From contig NC_080561.1 in NCBI RefSeq assembly GCF_030253575.1, positions 11,704,001 through 11,768,000 of the forward strand: a DNA stretch of 64,000 nucleotides, given 5' to 3'. Within the stretch, counting starts at the first letter, position 1; each line of letters opens with the position of its first letter. A model generated the notes under the pieces. That model made no database searches. It saw nothing but the letters and a program-made list of their open reading frames with translations, and was not told the origin of the DNA. The translations under genes were made by a program, and so were the position numbers. Positions 2,240 through 54,559 of the stretch are shown here, one piece after another. Source of the DNA: Rhododendron vialii (taxonomy: Eukaryota; Streptophyta; Magnoliopsida; Ericales; Ericaceae).

Positions 2240-5200
2240 TGTCACGCCCCGCCCCGCAAACGGCACCCAAAATGGGCCCGAGTCGGCGCGACCACGTGAC
2301 ATTCTACACAGAAGACCAAACCACACCTCATAACCTGTAAGAAATAAACACTCAGCGAAAGACTTAACACCTTAACATAACATAAAAAAATGAGTCAACG
2401 TATTGACCAACCAACCTTAATATCGCACAACCAAGAAACAACATCTGCATTATAGTACTTTAAAAATTCTATATTTCAACACATTCACCGACGACTTACT
2501 TACAACTTGAATAAACCAACTTCTTCATCAACCACCTACAACAAACTCGACTATCCACAACGTCCAAGACTAACCTCAAATAGAACACTAGCCATCGACC
2601 AAACATAATTACGACCTATACAATTTAAAAGCTTTAACTATCTTTAGTTACAACTCCTTACAAATTAAGTTCTGCACCAACTAAAGCACTCCACAACAAC
2701 GTAACCAAAATCCCACCTGACACTAGCAAAACGCATCAACACGACGACCGGTAGTGGACTAACTTTAAGCAACCTGCACTACAAGAAAAATTGCATTGGG
2801 TGACGAATGAAAATTGTCACAAATTGCATGTTTTTCGTCACAAATAATATAGGTGACGAAAAAAAATTTGTCGACTAAAGGTTGTCAAGGATTCCTACCT
2901 GGTGACGAAATCTATTTTTCGTCACATATAGTACCTTTTGATGGCGAAATATTTTGTCACCAAAAAGTGAATAATTGGTGACAAAATTTTTTTTCTCGCT
3001 TATTGTTCTGTTTAACGATGAAAAAATTCGTCACTGATGGGTCACATCGGTGACGAAATTTTTCGTTGCAAAAGACATTTTCATATGGGAAAAAAAACCT
3101 TCTTTCTTGCTCTTACTGGGTTTCGTACCCGAGGTCCTTGAGTTTTTCGCATAAGTCCCGACAACCTGCACCACACACACTTTTTCAGTAAATATTTGAA
3201 ATATGTAATATATAACATATATGTTTAACATGAAATATATTTCGAATGTAATTTTGAACATTTAAACATTAAAATTAGCAATTTTGATAAACATGAAAGT
3301 TGTAGGCAATTGAGTTATTGTTCAAACCCAATTTGAATTATCTCAATCGGAGTTTTTAGTAAAGAGTAATGTCCAAAATATATTTAGTGACAAAGCGCAA
3401 TTCATAAATTTCGTCACGAAAGGTACTCATTTAACGACAAAATATATTTTTCGTCACTGAAAGCGTTAAAATGGTGATGAAATTATTTTTCGTTACCAAA
3501 GTTAAGCATTTGGTGACAAAAAAAATATTTCGTTACTAAATTGGTCTCATTTGGCGACAAAATATATATTTTGTCACCAAATAATTACCATTGGTGATGA
3601 AAAATAATTTCGTCACATTTTTTAAGCTTTCAGTGACAAAAAATGTATTTCGTCACCAAATGGGTACCCTTTGGTGACGAAAATATTTTTTTTTGTCGTT
3701 AAACAAGTATAATTGGTGACGAAATTATTTTGTCACGGAAGTTGTTAAAACAGTGACGAATTTATTTTTTCGTCGCGAAATATACTCATTTAGTGATGAA
3801 ATTAAATTTGGTCGCCACTTTTTTGTCACCAATTTTCATTTTTCTTGTAGCGCTGCTACCTAGCAAACCAAAAAGGAAAGACAGAGTGTGTGAGATATAA
3901 AAATGCTCAATATAATACCACAATATCCAAAAGAATATCAACATGAATACACATCACCAATGTAACTGAAATACTAGAATGTATATAACAGTTATTATCA
4001 ACATATCTACCCAACTGAGCAATAATAATGAATGCACAACAATATGAATGTAATCACATCACATGCAGTGGCACGTCTGCCATATCCCATGAACCCAATA
4101 TAAGGTGTCCCACATACCATGCTCCCATCCATCGACAATTAGCCGGCATAACATACGACATGGTATGCCTCACACGTTAACTTTCGGCGATTCAATCAAC
4201 ATCCATCAGCATGTATTTTCATCAAACACGTATAGCACAACCAAATCTCATATCCCACACACCATGCTCCCAACCATCGTCCATTGAACGATATGGCTTA
4301 CGACATGGTGTGTCTCACACGCACACATTCACAACATATCAAAGCTAAACAACAGTAGCATGTTATACACTCACCACTACAACAATATCTCAGTAAGGAT
4401 AACTATATCAAAAGTTAACTACGATTAGCAAGATATACATCCACCACCACAACAGTATTATACGGAAAATAACCATATTAAATACAATCACCTTTGTGTC
4501 GACCAAAGTACGTCAAACTTACGATTTCGGAACCTCCCCAATTGACTGGCTTGTTACCTAGTCACAAGCTAACCATATCAGTTTATTGAACGCTTAAACG
4601 TTACCACCAACTCCTTAAAATAATCTATAACACTAACAATAGATTAACGATGCTTAACGCATACAAGCATATCCATCTTAAAGATCTTAAAGATTTATAA
4701 ATGTCCCTAAACAAGCGTAACACTCAAACACCAAATCACCTCTACATTTGGTCTGAAATCTACAACCAGCCTGTCGTATTCTACCTACAACTTCTTCGAG
4801 GATTAAAACCAGATCATGAAACTACCATCATTAGAAAGTACACCTCCGGTACATGAATTTTAATATTAAATTTGTTAAAAACGGAGTCCAAACGACAAAA
4901 TTATGCCCGTCCAAAGTTACACAAAAATCTATTCAAAATCACAGATTCTGCACGTCTATCAACTTCAAATCAAAAACTAATTTAACCTGGTACAAACTAA
5001 GTCACAACTTTCACATATTCCAAAATACATGCGAGTCTAGTTTCAGAATCAACAACTCGTGTGCTAACCCGATACCCGAGCTAAAAGATATGATCATTTT
5101 TTCAAAATGTGTCAGTGCAGCAAATACAATACTCAGCAGGGACACGCCAAATTGTAAAATCCGCCAAATTTAGAATATGCATCTAATAAACCCTAAATTT

Positions 5201-28643: not shown

Positions 28644-28825
28644 CTGCATAGTAATGAGACTCAAATGATTTGTTCTTACTACCAAATGGTAAAATGTGTA
28701 AGCTATTTGAAAATAATCTTCTGTGCAAAACAATGTCGTTATGAACCTTTTTCTTTTTCATGCATGATTGCTACCGGTAATTGTGTTTTATGTTCACATG
28801 CTACCATTATATTTTTTCATAAACC

Positions 28826-28974
28826 AGCGTTCAACCGGTTCTATGCACGGGCAAAATTAACCCGTTCTAGTGTTGTGCTTGTTCGAACCTACTTTTATTA
28901 ATTGTCCCGTGCATCGAATAGGCACAACACAAGAACGGGTTAGTTTTGCCCGTGCATAGAACGGGTTGAACGCT
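28826..28974. repeat. Hairpin MITE with GTGCATAGAACGGG arms
   Basis: AGCGTTCAACCGGTTCTATG..CACGGGCAAAATTAACCCGTTC is mirrored by GAACGGGTTAGTTTTGCCCG..TGCATAGAACGGGTTGAACGCT, arms of about 60 bp with a loop of about 25. It lies just outside the acceptor side of the PRR7 fragment. Confidence 0.75.
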
Positions 28975-29619
28975 AGTGTGAATGTAGTGTAAATGTGTAG
29001 TGCGTAGGGTTTTTGTTTTTGAAACCAAAGACCCATGCCTGCATGCCCACGGAATTAAGATCCAAAACCCACCACAATAGAAACCAAAGATAATTGCCCT
29101 TATTAACCAAACAACAAACTGCTCAAAACCAGAAAAATTCCCAAAATTTGATCCCGATTGATAATTTTGCACAACAAATTTTTAGACTGTTTTTTTGCCC
29201 ATAGTTTGTGGCAACTGAGCGTAATGTATTTGAGGGGCTAGGACAAATTTTCGAATTTGAAAATGGGGAATTTAGAAGCCGGCCCCGAAAAGTAGGTTTG
29301 GATTTAATTTAGTCTTGACAAAAATATTTCTTTTTTTATTTCAATCATTTTTCTTGACTTTTCATGCATTTTTACTATTTTACCTATTCTTCTTGGGGAA
29401 TTTTTAGGTTGGCCCCAAAAAGTAGGTTCGGACTTAATTTAGTCCTGACAAAAATATTCCTTCTTTATTTCAGTCATTTTTCTTGACTTTTTATGTATTT
29501 TTACTATTTTGCCCATTCTTCTTAACTTTTTGTATACATGTCCATTTTTAGTAAAATTTATATTTTTAGAATTAACTCCTGACCCATATTATTTCGGACA
29601 AAAATACCCCTGGCTATGT

Positions 29620-30890
29620 GAACTGTCAATTCTCATAGCCAGTTAACATAATATTTCGAATAAAAATATTCCTGCCAATTCACATAACCCGTGTTAACAT
29701 ATTATTTTGGACAAAAATACCTCTGAACTATAGCTATGATAACTAAGGCTATGAGAGCAATATTTTTTGAATCAATTTCTGAATTATATTATTTCAGACA
29801 AAAATACCCTTGGTTATGTGAATTGACTATGAGAACTGCCAAGTCTCATAGTCAGTTCTATGAGAACTCCCAATTTTCATAGTCAGTTCTATAAGAATTG
29901 GTTATGAGAACTGACTGTTCTCATAGAAAAATACGCAGTTCTCATTGAAAAATACACAGTTCTCATAGACAATTCTTATGAACAACACACAATTCTCATA
30001 GAAAATACACATACGAACAAAAATTGAATAAAAACAGAAAGGTAATCAAAATCAAATATAGTTATAAATGTTCTCACCACAATGTCTTAAAAAAGTAATC
30101 AAAGTAAAGAAGTAATAGTTCACATAGGAAATAAATTGATTTAGAATTGAATTTTTAACTGCCAAGTCTCATAATTAGTTCTATGAGAATTATGAGAACT
30201 ACTCAGTTCTCATAGAGAATTGACTATGTGAACTACCAATTCTCATAGTTAGTTATATGAGAACTGTCAATTTTCAGAGTCAGTTCTATGAGAATTGGTT
30301 ATGAGAAGTGACTGTTCTGGTTATGTGAACTGTCAATTCTCATAATCAGTTCTATGAGAATTAGTTATGAGAAGTGACTGTTTTCATAGAGAATTAGCTT
30401 TGTAAATTGGTTATGAGAACTGTACTATGTGAACTAAAAATACATAGTTCACATAGTTTTACCGCATACTAAAATACACTGTTCTCGTAAAAAATATATA
30501 GTTCTCTTAGAAAATACACAGTTCTAATAGATAGTTCTTATGGACAATACACAGTTCTCATAAAAAATACGCAGTTCTCATAGAAAAATACAAAATTCTC
30601 ATGAACAACACATAGTTCCAATAGAAAAATATACAGTTCTCATAAAAAGTACACACACGAATAAAAATTGAACAAAAATAAAAAAGTAATCAAAATCAAT
30701 GTTCTGAGAACTGGATTATATGAACTGAAAAATACATAGTTCACATAATTTTACTACACACTAAAATACACAGTTCTCATAAAAAATATATAGTTCTCAT
30801 AGAAAATATACGGTTCTAATATAGTTATCAATGTTCTCACGGCCAGATCAAAATCAAATATAGTTATCAATGTTCTCATGGCCAGATCTT
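29620..30890. repeat. Array of CTATGAGAACTG / CAGTTCTCATAG motifs (array 1)
   Basis: Dozens of diverged copies of an 11-12 bp motif in both orientations, the second half dominated by CAGTTCTCATAGAAAAATAC-type units. Longer blocks such as GAACAAAAATTGAATAAAAA and AGTAATCAAAATCAAATATAG recur (about 30015, 30660, 30845). No ORF. The array resembles the subterminal binding-site arrays of DNA transposons but is unusually long. Confidence 0.8.
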
Positions 30891-31333
30891 ATGTGGAATA
30901 CTTCTTAACAATTACAGAAAATACAAAAGTTTATTTACAAAATTGAAAATGTTTGTACCTTTCCCGTTCTTCTCCAACTGGAGCATTCAACCACCTAAAA
31001 ATAAAAGGTCTAGAAGCAATATTATGACAGAGAAGAGTGATTACCACAAACTTTAGCGATCAATTTTTATTGTTATTGATCCATTCTTAATTTGTGTCCC
31101 GCCAACAGCCTTTCTCTAAGGGACATCGATCACCATCACTGTGTCAATCGATTGCCACCGCCGTCGATCGGCCGTGGCCGGTCATCCTGAGTACTCCACT
31201 GCCCATCGCCTCCACCCCTTTTGTGTCGATCTGTCACGATGTCGCCGCCTCCGTTGTTTGTTCTGTCAGGCGTTTTGAACGGCGTAGGTGCTTTTCGACT
31301 GCCTACGGCAATGGAGATCGATGATGGATGAAC

Positions 31334-31420
31334 AACCTCTATGCCGGCTCCACCTCTATCAACGCCGTCGTCAAAGACAGCGGCCTCAAACTTGTCCAAG
31401 TCTTCGACAACGGCCATGGA
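31334..31420 (+). pseudogene. MLH1: MLH1 (MutL homologue) N-terminal fragment
   Basis: The plus-strand frame from 31334 reads N-L-Y-AGSTSIN-A-VVKDSGLKLVQV-F-D-N-GHG. It aligns over 29 residues with the conserved ATPase segment of plant MLH1, ENSLDAGSTSI..VVKDGGLKLIQVSDDGHG. The catalytic Asp-Ala-Gly has become Tyr-Ala-Gly and no flanking MLH1 exons follow, so it is a non-functional scrap. The intact gene is nuclear and acts in DNA mismatch repair. Identification rests on memory of the family; a translated search would settle it. Confidence 0.65.
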
Positions 31421-31474
31421 CGGCGGCTCGCCTCGCTCAGAACAGTATCAACAAGGAAGAGATGATGGACGTGG

Positions 31475-31510
<36 letters not shown>

Positions 31511-31749
31511 GAATGGCGAGATGAAGTTGACGATGCGGAATAAAAAGGGTAAAAAAGTCATTAGATAACATATCCGAGCCTAAGCAGGTTTGGAAATAAT
31601 ATTCAGGGTTGGGATTAAACTGAGCCTAAAAACAAGGACCAGCCTCTAGTTTACTAATTCTTCTTAACTTTTTGTGTACATGTCCATTTTTAGTAAAATT
31701 TACATTTTTAGAATCAATTCCTGACACATATTATTTTGGATAAAAATAC

Positions 31750-32890
31750 CCTTGGCTATATGAACTGGCTATAAGAACTGCCAATTCTCATAGTCAGTTA
31801 ACATAATTTTTCGGACAAAAATATCTCTATCAGTTCACATAGACCGAGTTAACATATTATTTTGGGTAAAAATATCCTGGAACTATAGCTATGAAAACTA
31901 AGGTTATGAGAGCTATATTTTTAGAATCAATTCCTGAATTATATTATTTCGAACAAAAATACCATTGGCTATGTAAACAAACTATGAGAACTGGCTATGT
32001 GAACTGAGTTATGAGAATTGGCTATGTAAACTGCTAATTCTCATAGTCAGTTCTATGAGAACTGTCAATTTTTATAGTCAGATTTATTAGAATTAGCTAT
32101 AAGAAGTGACTATTCTCATGGAGAATTAGCTTTGTGAACTGGCTATGTGAACTGAAAAATAAACAGTTTTCATAAAAAATATATAGTTCTCAAAGAAAAT
32201 ACACGGTTCTAATGGGCAGTTCTCATGGACAATACACAGTTCTCATAGAAAAATACATAGTTCTCATAGACAGTCCTCATGAACAACACACAGTCCTCAT
32301 AGAAAAATACACAGTTCTCATAGAAAATATACACACGAACAAAAATTGAACAAAAACAAAAAGATAATCAAAATCAAATATAATTATAAATGTTCTCACA
32401 GCCATATCTTAAAAAAGTAATCAAAGTAAAAAAGTAATAGTTCACATAGAAAATAATTAATTTATAATTGAATTTTTAACTGTCAAGTCTCATAGTCAGT
32501 TCTATAAGAACTGCTCAGTTCTCATAGAAAATTGGCTATGTGAACTAAGCAATGAGAATTGGCTATGTGAAGTGTTAATTCTCATAGTCAGTTCTATGAG
32601 AACTGCCAGTTTTCATAGAGAACTAACTTTTTGTGAATTGGTTATGAAAGCTGGACTGTGTGAACTAAAAAATACACAGTTCACATAGTCTTACCACACA
32701 ATAAAATAAACAATTCTCATAAAAAATATATAGTTATCATAGAAAATACACGGTTCTAATAGACAGTATTTATGGACAATATACAGTTCTCATAGAAGAA
32801 TACACAGTTCTCATAGACAGTTTTCATGATCAACACATATTTCTCATAGAAAAATACACAATTCTCATAAAAAATACTCACAAAAAAAAA
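31750..32890. repeat. Array of CTATGAGAACTG / CAGTTCTCATAG motifs (array 2)
   Basis: Same motif family and the same order of longer blocks as array 1 (for example the AAATTGAACAAAAACAAAAAG block at about 32343 and the AGTTCACATAGAAAATAATT block at about 32440), so the two arrays share ancestry. No coding capacity. Confidence 0.8.
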
Positions 32891-33331
32891 ATATAAAAAT
32901 AACTTATCACACAATTTACATAACTGAAACACTTCCAATTTGAAAGTAATATTGAAATTATAGAAAAAATACTTTTCAAGAGCACAACATTATTATTTTT
33001 TGCTAAGCAAGTACAACATTATTACTCCTACATAAATCTGATTGAACATAATAGAAATCAAACTTGAGGAAATTATGGCAGTTTGGACATCTGGCGGAGC
33101 TTTATTTTAACGCCGACAAAATCGAGCAATTTATGAACTTGAGAAATATTGCCGGCTCGTTCAGTTATGTGAATGGTGAGGAATTTACCAAAGATGATGT
33201 TAGCAGGATTTACGTAGAAAAAGAATTCGACTGGAAGAGGTGGTCAGGTGGTGTTCGAGATTAAGATAGGTCGTACGAGAATTAGATCGATGAACTCGTC
33301 GGAGTCAACGTTGACGTCCTTTAATGTTGAG

Positions 33332-35503
33332 CTAGATGAACTCGCCGAGGTAGATGTGGCCGTTGCCGTCAACCTCGTGGATCATGGCGGAGATCTTGTG
33401 TAACATCCTTTTTAATTGAGGTGCTTAAATGCTAAATTTAATAACTTAAAGGACTAAAGTGCATTTTTTTTAAAATTGTGCATGTGTGCCGTGTGTATGG
33501 TGTGGTGTTGTGTGTGTGTGTGTGTGTTCTTTTAAAACAAAAGAGAAAAAAAAATAGAAGAGAACAAACCCATCAGAAAGGTTTGTACCAAGTGAGAGAG
33601 AGAGAGAGAGAGATAGAGAGAGAGAGAGATCAGCCGTGAGGAGAGAAAGAAGAAGGAAGAAAGGGATTAAGGGTTTTGAAGCTTAATTAGGTAATCTTCA
33701 TCTTTTTAAGTGTTGAATTTTATATTTCTCATGCTAGGTTTCTTATTCTGCATCTAATATGCTCTGAATTGAAGCCATGGGAGAGGGGTTTTTAGGTTGG
33801 AGTTGAGTTTTATTCCAGAAAATTCGTGTATAGTATGATTATGCATAACTGTGTTGAACCAAATTGAATCTGTCCTGTTTTTGATGAATATTTCTTGTCG
33901 ACTTTCTAAACATTTTATTTTCTGGTAATTTTACTGGAGATGCCTCTGTGAGTGTAGTTTATGCTGTAAAAATTTCAGAATTTTCTGAGAAATGTGGAAA
34001 AAGATAAAAATCATGAACCGGACTGCAGTCAGATTCGCGTCTGTGCTGACAGCCCAGACACATGTTGGAAAAACGAGCATAACTTCTTGCTCGGGTATCG
34101 GTTTTACACACCGTTTCTTGATTCCGAAACTAGACTTGTATATCTTTCTGAATCTGTAAAGATTGTGCCTTATTTTGGTCTGAGAAAAATCAGTTTTGGT
34201 TCCGAAGTTAATAGTTTGGTAATTCTGAAATTCTGGGCAGGTTTTGTAGCTGTGTTCTTCATCAATTTTGTCATAGTTGAATATGCTTACTGACTATGGA
34301 TGCTGTTGAGTCTTAAACCTTGATCAGTTGATGTTTTTTTGGCGTTGGAAGTATTGGAAAAGATTGAGTATGTGATTTTTAATGAACATTCGATCGCAGA
34401 CTGTTTTGCTGGGTCTGTAGTTTCTGTTTTAGATGTTTAATTTCAATTGAGCATATCTTAGTCATTCGGAGTCCAATTTGGACAAAATTTATATCTAGAT
34501 TGATGTACTAGAAGTCTTCTTGCTAGTAGTGGCGGTCTTGTAGTATTCTTTGAAACCTATAGAATTCTATAGTCAGAAATCGATCAGTGGTTCTGTTGAT
34601 AATATGTGAAATTGTGGAATTCTTGGTTTTGGGTACGAATTGGTGAATTTACTTTTGTTCGGCATACGTTAAATAGTTGAATTGATGTAGAACATTGTTA
34701 ATGCATTTGTTAAAGCCTTAAAAGTATCTCTATACTAAAATGTTTGGCTTGTGGATAGGTGACGAGTCGGTGAATCAAGGAGCAGCGAAACCATAGTTGT
34801 ACTTTCTTTTGGAGTACGAGGTGAGTGTTTGATTCATAGATGTTGTTCTATATTGAATTAAACTTGAATGTTGGCTTAGTGCCCGGTGATTGGCTTTATG
34901 CCAAAAGGCTTTATGCGTTAAATTATTGGCTGTGTTTATGCCATATGGCTTTATGCCTTAAACTATTGACTGTGTGCCTGGTGATTGGCTTAATGCCAAA
35001 AGGCTTTATGCCTTAAATTATTGGCTGTGTGCCTGGTGTTGCTTTTAATTGCTTGGTTCACTGTTGACTGGTTGAGATATATCTTTTAGCTGTACCTTTA
35101 ATATGGAATTGCATCCATGTTTCATAACACTCCTGGATTCCATTTTGGAATCCAGTTTTGTAGGCGTTGTAGATACCCACTGCTGATCGTCGTGGGGTTG
35201 TACGCTCGCTTAGGGTAGCATGTCGGAAAGGCTGGACTAGTTTGGCAAAATTTTGTAGATAGTGATGTAGTGCAGCCGATGTTTATATTTGGTTCATTGT
35301 ATAGTTTAATGCTTTCTTAAGACTTCCGCTGTGTTTGTAAGAACGTTTAAGTTTTGCGTTATCAATAAAATGGCTGTTGGTTAATTTAATTGCTAGAATT
35401 TGAGTTATAGGAATGGGTTGGTGGTTGATGTTGCACCCTCACGTCGGTTTGGGCTCATTTGAGTGCTGACCCGGGGTGGGGTGTGACATCTTGTCGTTGG
35501 GCT
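33332..35503 (-). pseudogene. Degenerate EF-hand (calmodulin-like) fragment interrupted by the solo LTR
   Basis: On the minus strand, after removing the LTR (33399-35488), one frame reads ...PNDKISAMIHEVDGNGHIYL.. then GEFI and a stop at 33332. This resembles a calmodulin-like EF-hand (EVDxNGHIxxxEFI). Upstream on the same strand (35503-35679) is a Pro-rich repeat frame (APKAEVPPH.QAP units) in a different phase. Sequence between the two EF-hand halves is missing and the phase shifts, so it is a broken remnant. The identity is tentative. Confidence 0.4.
33399..35488 (+). mobile_element. Solo LTR, Ty3/gypsy-like, 2.09 kb, exact TSD
   Basis: Starts TGTAACATCC and ends GGGGTGTGACA, with TG...CA termini. 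TCTTG directly flanks both sides (33394-33398 and 35489-35493), an exact 5-bp duplication. No gag-pol on either side, so an LTR-LTR recombinant. Internal features: (GT)n near 33505-33527, (GA)n at 33594-33629, a repeated GGCTTTATGCC segment (about 34880-35040), and AATAAA near 35364. It interrupts the EF-hand fragment of the carrier element. Confidence 0.9.
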
Positions 35504-36004
35504 CCACGGACCATGGCGGCTTCGAGTTTGGGCGCCGGCGGTGGAGCTTGGTGGTGCGGAGGAACTTCGGCTTTGGGCGCCGGTCGCGGAGCTTGGCAGT
35601 GCGGAGGAACTTCGGCTTTGGGCGCCGACAGCAGAGCTTGATGTGTCGTTAAATTAACCTCGTTCAGCTTGATCTTCATAGAACTATGGAAGATGCAAAG
35701 GCTTGGGTGGCGACATCTCCTTACTGAACAAAGATCAAGCAGCTAGAATTTGAATGTGAAACAACGGACTTTTAATTTAGAATTTTATGGAGGATGAGTT
35801 GGTGATGGACGGAAATCTGGTGGGAGAATGAGGTTGTCGGTGTCGTCAGATTCTTCCAATGGATCGTCGTCGTCAGGGAGTAATAGTGCCAGTCTCTCTC
35901 TCGGGCAAAAAAGTCATTTCGCATGTAGCCGAGCCTATGCTGGTTTGGCAAAAATATTTCAGGATTGGATTCAAATTGAACCTAAAAAAAAAGACCCGCC
36001 TCTA

Positions 36005-36477
36005 ATTTTCTATTTGAAAATTAACAAGGTTTTGGGCCATATATGGCAGTTGGGTTGGGTTTTGGGTGGTAGGTGAGGCAAGTTAGGATTTATCTGTTGA
36101 TTTTTCTTTGCATAAGTGGAACAAATTAATAGCAGCACACCGGCTCCACCTCATCTTCTGTTAGACACATCAACAAAATTCTACAGTATCACTCAATTGA
36201 CGGCAAGGACAACATTGAACCATGATTTGCAAAATAGGAATTAAATTAGTACTGAATGTTGTTTTGTAGTTGAAATGAAGGAAGAGGAGGATGAGGTATG
36301 ATTTCGGCCTCATCAAGGGATATTAATTAATGACATCCCAAAATCCACCCATAAATAATACCCTGCGTCCCTCTACGCTCGGATAAACTAATCCCCCTGC
36401 ATCCCTTATACCCCTTGTCCAAATGCTTCCCAAACCAAGGATAAGAGTGAGCTCCACCTCCTTATCCCCCCACATAA
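36005..36477. other. Sequence with decayed MITE ends
   Basis: CCCTGCATCCCTTATACCCC and similar C-rich motifs near 36390-36475 pair with ATCCCATCCAAACGGGCC after the following LTR (39175-39193), suggesting an older MITE that the LTR split. No gene. Confidence 0.35.
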
Positions 36478-44774: not shown

Positions 44775-45571
44775 GAATATAATACATTGCCACAAGCTAC
44801 TCTATAACCCGAGTTTAACAGGTTAACTGGCGCGGGTCGTTACAGTTGGTATCAAAGTACAAAGACGTTGCATCATAAGGTGGAGAGAATGTGAGAGCAC
44901 ACCTGGTCATAAGGCCCACATCAGTAATAAAGGTATATTTGGTTCGATGGAATTAAATTGAACTGGAATGGTCATTTCAATAGCGTACTTATTCCTATGT
45001 TTGGTTCATTATGAAATGATGGAATGATCATTTCAAATACAATCACTGTTCACCTTAGTAAGTTGGTTTAATTGCCCTAACTATGGCGGAATATTTTCGA
45101 GAACGGAGTGAAAGAAAGGAGACGATTCCTTTCCACTAAAAAAACAAATGAATTGTCATTTTATTTCTTTGTCACAGTGAAATTATTAGTGTCACTCCAT
45201 AATTATTATTGCCACACCAAAAATTACTATTGTCTCACCAAAATTACTATTGCCGCACCAAAAATTACTATTGTCTAACCAAAATTTAATATTGTCATTC
45301 CAAAATTACTATTGCCACACCAAAGTTCTATTGCAGATGAGAATGATTATTCCTAAGCACAACCAAATTTGGGAATAAGAATAGATATTCCAATCTCATT
45401 TCCTCCAATTCCATTCCAACCTCAATTCCATTTCATCGAACCAAACATACCCTAAGATGTGAGAAATGAATCTTATATATAATGTATCGCCACAAGCTAT
45501 TGTATAACCCGATGTTAACTTTTTAAGTCACGTGGAGCCAATAATTAACAGGTCAGGCGCGGATCGTTACA
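44775..45571 (+). mobile_element. Remnant of an LTR retrotransposon edge, duplicated, with a MITE between
   Basis: GCGGGTCGTTACA is followed by GTTGGTATCAAAG, which resembles an LTR 3' end plus a primer-binding site for initiator tRNA-Met (TGGTATCAGAG). The segment ATA(C/G)ATTGCCACAAGCTA to CGTTACA appears at 44775-44846 and again at about 45473-45571. The Tourist-like MITE 44931-45452 sits between. No coding domains remain. Confidence 0.4.
44931..45452. mobile_element. Tourist-like MITE with internal minisatellite
   Basis: TAA at 44928-44930 and 45453-45455 flank AGGTATATTTGGTTCGATGG and the complement of CATCGAACCAAACATACCC. The interior (about 45180-45335) has about six diverged units of CACCAAAAATTACTATTGTC. 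522 bp. Confidence 0.75.
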
Positions 45572-53800: not shown

Positions 53801-54010
53801 GGTAAGTAAATGGTGTAGTTGAGAGTAGATAAGAGTAAATGACTGAAGTAAATGGTGTAGGTGAGAGTAGATGAGAGTAAATGATGTAGGTGAAAGTAGA
53901 TGACAGTAAATGATGTAGGTGAGAGTAGATATAAGTAAATGACTATAGTAAATGGTGTAGTTGAGAGTGTGGAGTAAATGGATCAATTAAATGACGTGGT
54001 TGAGAATTGA
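53801..54010. repeat. Minisatellite upstream of the Harbinger transposase
   Basis: About seven diverged, roughly 30-bp units of GTAAATGATGTAGGTGAGAG / TAGATGAGA between the transposase gene and the right end of the element. Possibly transposase- or ORF1-binding repeats. Confidence 0.75.
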
Positions 54011-54559
54011 TGGGAGTAAATGGATGAAGTAAATTGTGTTACTGAAGTGGATGAGAAGTAAAAAAAAAGAAAAATGAGAAGGAAGTTTTTTTTTTTTTCC
54101 GAAATTTTTTTTTTTAAAGTTCTCGATTACCGGATACCAAAATTATTTTTCAACGGAAGTAGTATTTAAATTAGGATTAAGAAAGTTAAGGAAAATTAAG
54201 GAGGATGGAAAGTTAGTTAATTATCCATCTTTTTTTTACATCCCACCATTGGATAGGCATGGGTTCTATTTTACATCTAACCAACTTTTAACTACTTTTT
54301 ACATCTAAAATAACTATACAACCACTTCTAAAATGCATCCCCATTGGGGATGCTCTCAGAAAATCTTACATCTCGAGCTTGAGTTTCACTTGCATGCTAT
54401 CGATTCCTGTACTGCGTCACTACATTCGAATCTTTTTCCTGACTTTAATTTTGCAAAGTAATTGTCCATTGAGCCAAACAACGAGTTATAAAAAAAAAAA
54501 CATCAGCGAGCTGAAATTCCTTATTTTAAGGAGCACCAGCAAATTATGAAAAAACCGTG

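Follow-up and report, generated by a model that had tools for sequence, protein, structure and literature searches.

Here, we describe the 29265-36012 locus in a stretch of 64,000 nucleotides from Rhododendron vialii (assembly GCF_030253575.1, contig NC_080561.1, positions 11,704,001 to 11,768,000; this whole stretch is called the window, and positions given without a contig refer to it). The locus is very probably (about 0.9) a nested pair of non-autonomous Mutator-like elements (MULEs) of the gene-fragment-carrying type, or Pack-MULEs, in which an inner element A has inserted into an outer element B, both being members of one high-copy family. The family is real and well defined, and it is of the Pack-MULE type with a lopsided build; its kind is already known.

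Architecture of the locus

A first-pass annotation, made from the letters of the window, had described two units that share a left body, an array of one motif and similar right ends. This description holds, as the bodies of A and B are 76-80% identical, each with an array of one short motif, and the right ends (31547-31659 versus 35903-36015) are 78% identical. The inner right parts, which the annotation had called unrelated, gave no match when A and B were compared with each other. Its tandem layout, in contrast, has to give way to nesting, in which 29265-29394 is the left end of B, cut off from the rest. The stretch 29264-29394 is 87% identical to 29394-29523, and 29265-29394 joined to 31666 onward yields a continuous arm, like A's intact arm at the same place. 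Exact 9-bp duplications, TTTGAAAAT for B and ATTCTTCTT for A, are present where the annotation had reported no target duplication, and the block ends at 36012 rather than at 36004. A starts with GGGGAATTTTTAGG at 29395, its final letters are ...CTAGTTTACTA at 31656, and its insertion point lies 130 bp into the left arm of B. Because the arm of B (29265-29394) resumes at 31666 as in uninterrupted A, A is nested in B, in the same orientation; and because A, with its own 9-bp duplications, sits inside the left end of B, B is the older of the two. The features of both elements are as follows; the later insert in B is listed further below.

29256..29264, no strand: left target duplication of B, TTTGAAAAT, 9 bp, identical to 36013-36021
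29265..29394, plus strand: left terminal segment of B, starting GGGGAATTTAGAAGCC, severed from the remainder of B by A
29386..29394, no strand: left target duplication of A, ATTCTTCTT, 9 bp, identical to 31657-31665
29395..31656, plus strand: inner element A, complete, 2262 bp, same orientation as B; its ends GGGGAATTTTTAGG / GCCTCTAGTTTACTA resemble the ends of genomic copies
29615..30880, plus strand: array of A with the CTATGAGAAC-type motif facing either way; its limits, set from a tandem repeat finder and the places of the motifs, are approximate
31330..31419, plus strand: fragment of the MLH1 gene carried by A; its 90 bp are 85.6% identical to C12:808603-808692
31547..31656, plus strand: right end of A, with 42 matched stretches within the 40 scored of 212 candidates
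31657..31665, no strand: right target duplication of A, ATTCTTCTT
31666..36012, plus strand: second part of outer element B; without A and the insert, B measures about 2.38 kb
31786..32850, plus strand: array of B, with approximate limits set in the same way
33335..33398, minus strand: possible EF-hand-like scrap in the cargo of B, antisense to the element's left-to-right direction, with a weak calmodulin match
35903..36012, plus strand: right end of B, ...GCCTCTAATTTTCTA; a right-end match (A's or B's) occurs in 18/20 and 6/8 fetched copies
36013..36021, no strand: right target duplication of B, TTTGAAAAT

A constant arm and changing cargo

The genome (532.6 Mb in 13 contigs) was searched with the left arm, 29265-29700, as query. 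This gave 413 candidates, and the 40 that were scored held 103 matched stretches, 40 of them long, including the window's own, and the remainder short, array-type stretches. The other 39 long matches all start at query base 120-149, near the start of A (131), which would be expected if 29265-29394 is a separate terminal segment. We fetched 28 copies (20 and then 8), of which 23 were used together with A and B as a 25-element set; L009, L021, L041 and L042 (right end not found) and L018 (an interrupted pair) were omitted. Family end sequences are GGGGAATTTWKAGGCC / GGCCTCTAATTTTCTA. The exact left-end pattern occurs 84 times in the genome, against 0 for its reversed control, and the right-end pattern 101 times, against 1 for the control; 19 same-strand pairs of exact ends are spaced 1,006 to 4,288 bp apart.

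The first-pass annotation had proposed a Pack-type element that swaps host-gene cargo while it keeps a structural arm, and had set beforehand, as the test of this, a genome search for copies with the same arms and different cargo. The copies behave as it proposed: the 39 further long arm matches (in 40 scored of 413 candidates) provide the arm, and 18 cargo groups are found among the 25 elements. In 300/300 pairs of elements the first 450 bp are shared, with a mean coverage of 0.99, and in 293/300 pairs the last 115 bp are shared with a coverage of at least one half. What lies between array and right end, in contrast, is shared in only 9/300 pairs (any match in 65; mean coverage 0.059).

The array is one-sided in 25/25 elements. 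It consists of CTATGAGAAC and relatives in both orientations and ranges in length from 227 to 1780 bp; its first motif lies at base 218-339 and its last at 0.44-0.67 of the element's length in all 25. The inner region is by definition everything after the last motif; what is not circular is that a long motif-free stretch, from array to right end, always lies on the right (25/25). Inner regions have a GC content of 0.40-0.52, versus 0.28-0.36 for the arrays.

The omitted pair L018 (C11:24541567-24551566) holds an inverted family copy within the right end of another family copy, with no clean duplication.

Host genes in the cargo

Two donor genes, MLH1 and a TPT-like transporter, were found by comparison at the sequence level; host-gene fragments with a traceable source, as Pack-MULEs carry, are thus present in the family. 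The MLH1 fragment that had been noticed in A was borne out. Over its 46 residues, Mlh1 is the best phmmer match in PDB (E 2.8e-5), and a 90-bp stretch of its DNA is 85.6% identical to the host MLH1 gene; Pfam returned nothing for this very short piece. At the host locus, C12:808603-808692, the frame matches Mlh1 in PDB at 3.1e-23 and holds an ATPase domain in Pfam. The donor reading frame extends past the shared piece, and neither a family arm nor an array nor a right end was found in the 3,090 bases examined there. Since the fragment also adjoins family right ends in L035, L045, L049 and L050, it spread after its capture.

The cargo of L027 (923 bp) is present at nearly full length in 5 places including its own, at 91-100% identity. 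A 208-bp part of it stands alone at C3:33904034 (95% identity), in an open frame that runs past the shared piece and scores as TPT at 6.6e-7, narrowly missing the Pfam cut-off. In the 1,008 bases examined around this TPT-like locus, family arm, array and right end were all absent. For both donor loci, the array search was made without the 150-bp minimum match length. Three further loci share only bases 5-394 of the L027 cargo (93-95% identity), and in two of these, L052 and L053 (90% alike), repetitive sequence and a different inner part follow before the family right end.

A six-frame Pfam scan covered the inner regions of 16 elements, which represent 15 of the 18 cargo groups. Cellulose synthase is matched at 1.8e-16 by one frame of the second scanned set and at 2.1e-14 by a frame of L026, with a PDB match at 7.8e-11; this is a protein match only. 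Weaker Pfam matches from the inner-region scan were PG_binding_1 (6.8e-5) and ArfGap (9.6e-4 and 8.8e-3); Arm in L043 (0.0011) was just under the cut-off. We did not rely on matches with E 0.001-0.05, which are mostly at chance level (13 family rows were seen in 96 frames, where chance would give about 5 at 0.05).

The EF-hand-like scrap reported for B is less certain. Its 22 residues in the window have calmodulin as best PDB hit (E 0.0014), a weak match, but the Pfam EF-hand match on the frame of the sibling copy L037 was not significant (E 0.16). The cargo of B thus perhaps includes a calmodulin-like EF-hand scrap, which is plausible but weak. Two loci considered as donor genes for it, C11:14525506 and C3:28304134 (L047 and L048), were dropped, as they are similar to each other and might themselves be carried as cargo by other elements. 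At C2:17771835, a family left end stands about 1.9 kb before two stretches (C2:17773711-17774008) with 74-78% similarity to the EF-hand cargo; similar cargo may have been captured separately there.

It might be argued that no gene was ever captured, the inner regions being diverged relics of a single long ancestral transposon and the gene resemblances arising by chance or from genes derived from it. Most scanned inner regions indeed lack a reliable Pfam match, and in several of the inner regions a family segment recurs near the right end. We nevertheless regard this as very unlikely: the MLH1 and transporter loci are free of family arms, arrays and right ends (in 3,090 and 1,008 bases), the donor reading frames continue beyond the shared piece, and the cellulose synthase match reaches 1.8e-16.

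Target duplications, terminal ends and superfamily

Exact 9-bp flank duplications were found in 17/25 elements, and duplications of at least 8 of 9 letters in 19/25. When left and right flanks of different elements were paired under the same rule, with small offsets allowed, 7/600 pairs were exact and 16/600 reached at least 8 of 9. Outside the 25-element set, the inverted neighbour of L013 carries TTTATTTAT on both flanks. Compared in a fixed inverted register, the consensus left and right ends match at 23/37 positions (1/20000 shuffles as good) and at 32/60 over 60 (0/20000); the letters were taken from the consensus ends, with the right end's terminal T added.

MULEs make a target site duplication of 9-11 bp, and their terminal inverted repeats are typically 100-500 bp long (PMC3310237). 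A duplication in that range is present both in the family statistics and at the two window elements. The termini had first been judged to match no familiar superfamily; because of the 9-bp duplications and the imperfect inverted ends, they point to a Mutator-like assignment. Helitrons make no target duplication and have TC...CTRR ends; an assignment to them was rejected, since target duplications are present and the ends differ. CACTA elements have CACTA ends. We likewise rejected a hAT or CACTA Pack-TYPE element on the 9-bp duplication and the ends GGGGAATTT.../...TCTAATTTTCTA, as duplications of Pack-TYPE elements are 8 nt in hAT and 5 nt in CACTA (PMC8903248).

Several findings weigh against a family of Pack-MULEs with captured cargo. 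Six of the 25 elements lack a duplication of at least 8 of 9 letters, and among the 17 exact duplications some are A-rich and so weaker evidence (L012, L027, L040). The inverted ends are short and imperfect, and long terminal repeats were not seen; a gapped alignment of the 75 bp consensus ends was no better than shuffles (157/2000 as good), and the inverted ends of 6 single elements did not beat shuffles either. None of the 150 scored PF10551 (MULE transposase) places, of 1102 candidates, lies 15 kb or less from any of the 84 exact left ends or any of the 100 listed right ends (of 101), for which chance predicts 0.7 and 0.8. Most scanned inner regions hold no recognisable gene. The cargo is also imperfectly partitioned, as L031, L032 and L033 join a 113-bp piece of the inner region of A to the last approximately 195 bp of B, and partial sharing between cargo groups clusters beside the right end. 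From this clustering, the right subterminal stretch is partly family sequence and not cargo. The mosaic copies lie in the regions C13:18067707, C6:13732119 and C9:14878585.

Two other readings of the locus itself were weighed against nesting. The block could be one composite that carries additional terminal repeats and transposes as a whole, like the tomato MULEs with tandem ends. One duplication does bracket the whole of 29265-36012, and MULEs with extra ends exist (PMC3310237). In the consulted part of that paper, however, no recognisable duplication stands beside the internal ends, whereas the ends of A have one; moreover, all of the first 20 fetched copies have a left-end match and 0/20 a second one on the same strand, which makes the composite highly improbable. 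That two units arose by tandem duplication or unequal recombination between arrays would fit their same orientation, their shared bodies and the lack of a left end directly before the second part of B, but is scarcely credible, given that ATTCTTCTT is exactly duplicated on both sides of A, that removal of A and one ATTCTTCTT copy restores an uninterrupted arm as in A, and that B has its own outer duplication.

Transposase and possible mechanism

As in other Pack-MULEs, no transposase coding was found within the scanned inner regions: for the 16 elements whose inner regions were scanned in six frames, there was no MULE transposase match at E 0.05, nor was there one at E 1 in two window frames and four frames of L037. 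MULEs are moved by a transposase of the MURA type that has the same ends. We infer that a Mutator-type transposase encoded elsewhere could bind the ends, and perhaps the array too, and move the elements in trans by cut and paste. Cargo might be replaced when a break in an element is repaired by copying from elsewhere; the left arm would be retained and the segment beside the right end swapped during the repair, and the new cargo would then multiply by transposition. For animal Pack-TIRs (terminal inverted repeats), gap filling and fork switching have been reported, and the origination mechanism of Pack-type elements has been termed perplexing (PMC8277862); transduplication in plants is summarised in PMC13317346.

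It is tempting to propose that the one-sided motif array is itself a working part that makes gene capture polar, with the array arm kept as a fixed handle. The arm might serve for transposase binding or offer many annealing sites to a broken end; only the segment between array and right end would be exchanged, and each cycle of break and repair could install host sequence while mobility is kept. The widely varying array length (227 to 1780 bp) and sub-lineages with a common arm and 390-bp proximal segment that differ beyond it both fit such a role. We consider the proposal speculative and rather unlikely.

The way in which Pack-type elements acquire gene pieces has yet to be settled. With a constant arm, variable cargo and identifiable donors, a high-copy family provides a breakpoint series on which repair and fork-switching models could be tested, and the division into arm and cargo makes it a good test case. 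For annotation, a warning follows: MLH1 or transporter pieces inside family elements could be called as genes.

Comparison with known elements

Pack-MULEs were reportedly described in rice by Jiang et al. in 2004. The present family resembles them in being non-autonomous, in its 9-bp duplications and inverted ends, in carrying different host-gene fragments and in having lineages that multiply with their cargo. It differs in that a constant left arm, bearing a one-sided array of a short motif, makes up about half of each element, in that the inverted ends are short and imperfect, and in that the cargo lies on the right in 25/25 elements. To our knowledge, such a lopsided division into arm and cargo is unusual for Pack-MULEs.

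The tomato and other MULEs with multiple long terminal inverted repeats in PMC3310237 likewise have more than two terminal sequences per block, and some carry gene fragments; according to the consulted part of that paper, they have no duplication at the inner ends and its authors excluded nesting, whereas the 9-bp duplication demonstrates nesting here. Pack-TYPE elements of other superfamilies, as presented in PMC8903248, capture and spread in the same way, with duplications of 8 nt (hAT) or 5 nt (CACTA) instead of 9. Insertion of one element into another, including long terminal repeat (LTR) retrotransposons into MULEs, is documented in PMC3903597; the nested cases in its consulted part differ from the present one, in which a family member lies inside the terminal segment of another member. 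A limited search found no paper on a Pack-MULE, or a MULE with a terminal inverted repeat, in Rhododendron, and among the papers listed by broader searches no title or abstract opening describes a one-sided array of this kind.

A later insert in element B

The inner part of the second unit, all of which had been taken as cargo, contains 2,090 bp (33399-35488) of a later, solo-LTR-like insert.

33394..33398, no strand: left target duplication of the insert, TCTTG, from the flanking letters
33399..35488, no strand: solo-LTR-like insert in the cargo of B, 2,090 bp, TGTAACATCC...GTGTGACA, a high-copy repeat with an empty site in L037
35489..35493, no strand: right target duplication of the insert, TCTTG, from the flanking letters
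35494..35900, plus strand: remaining cargo of B with a 45-bp tandem repeat; its first approximately 120 bp are contiguous in L037 with the cargo left of the insert

The sibling L037 has a B-type array and cargo and carries GAGATCTTGTCG unbroken at the insertion point. Because L037 thus shows the empty site, the insert is later than B and not part of its cargo, and the second unit as first annotated is therefore a transposon of about 2.4 kb plus a 2.1-kb insert. Its TG...CA ends and 5-bp duplication suggest that the insert is a solo LTR. The first 898 bases of the insert gave 935 candidate places in the genome, of which 40 were scored.

Two same-strand copies of the insert repeat lie 6.9 kb apart on C5. 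In the window, a 158-bp stretch at 4956-5113 on the minus strand is 75% similar to part of the insert and is perhaps another fragment of this repeat. A sibling of the B cargo on C12 is split into 16724824-16725053 and 16733291-16733406, about 8.2 kb apart with a 5-base overlap (query 225-229), and resembles another insertion with a 5-bp duplication.

Other repeats in the window

A fold-back element at 28823-28977, with 64-nt arms that are 91% complementary and a spacing of 27 nt, is perhaps a miniature inverted-repeat transposable element. Further short-period tandem arrays, with different motifs, lie at 3408-3736, 45169-45334 and 53804-54039.

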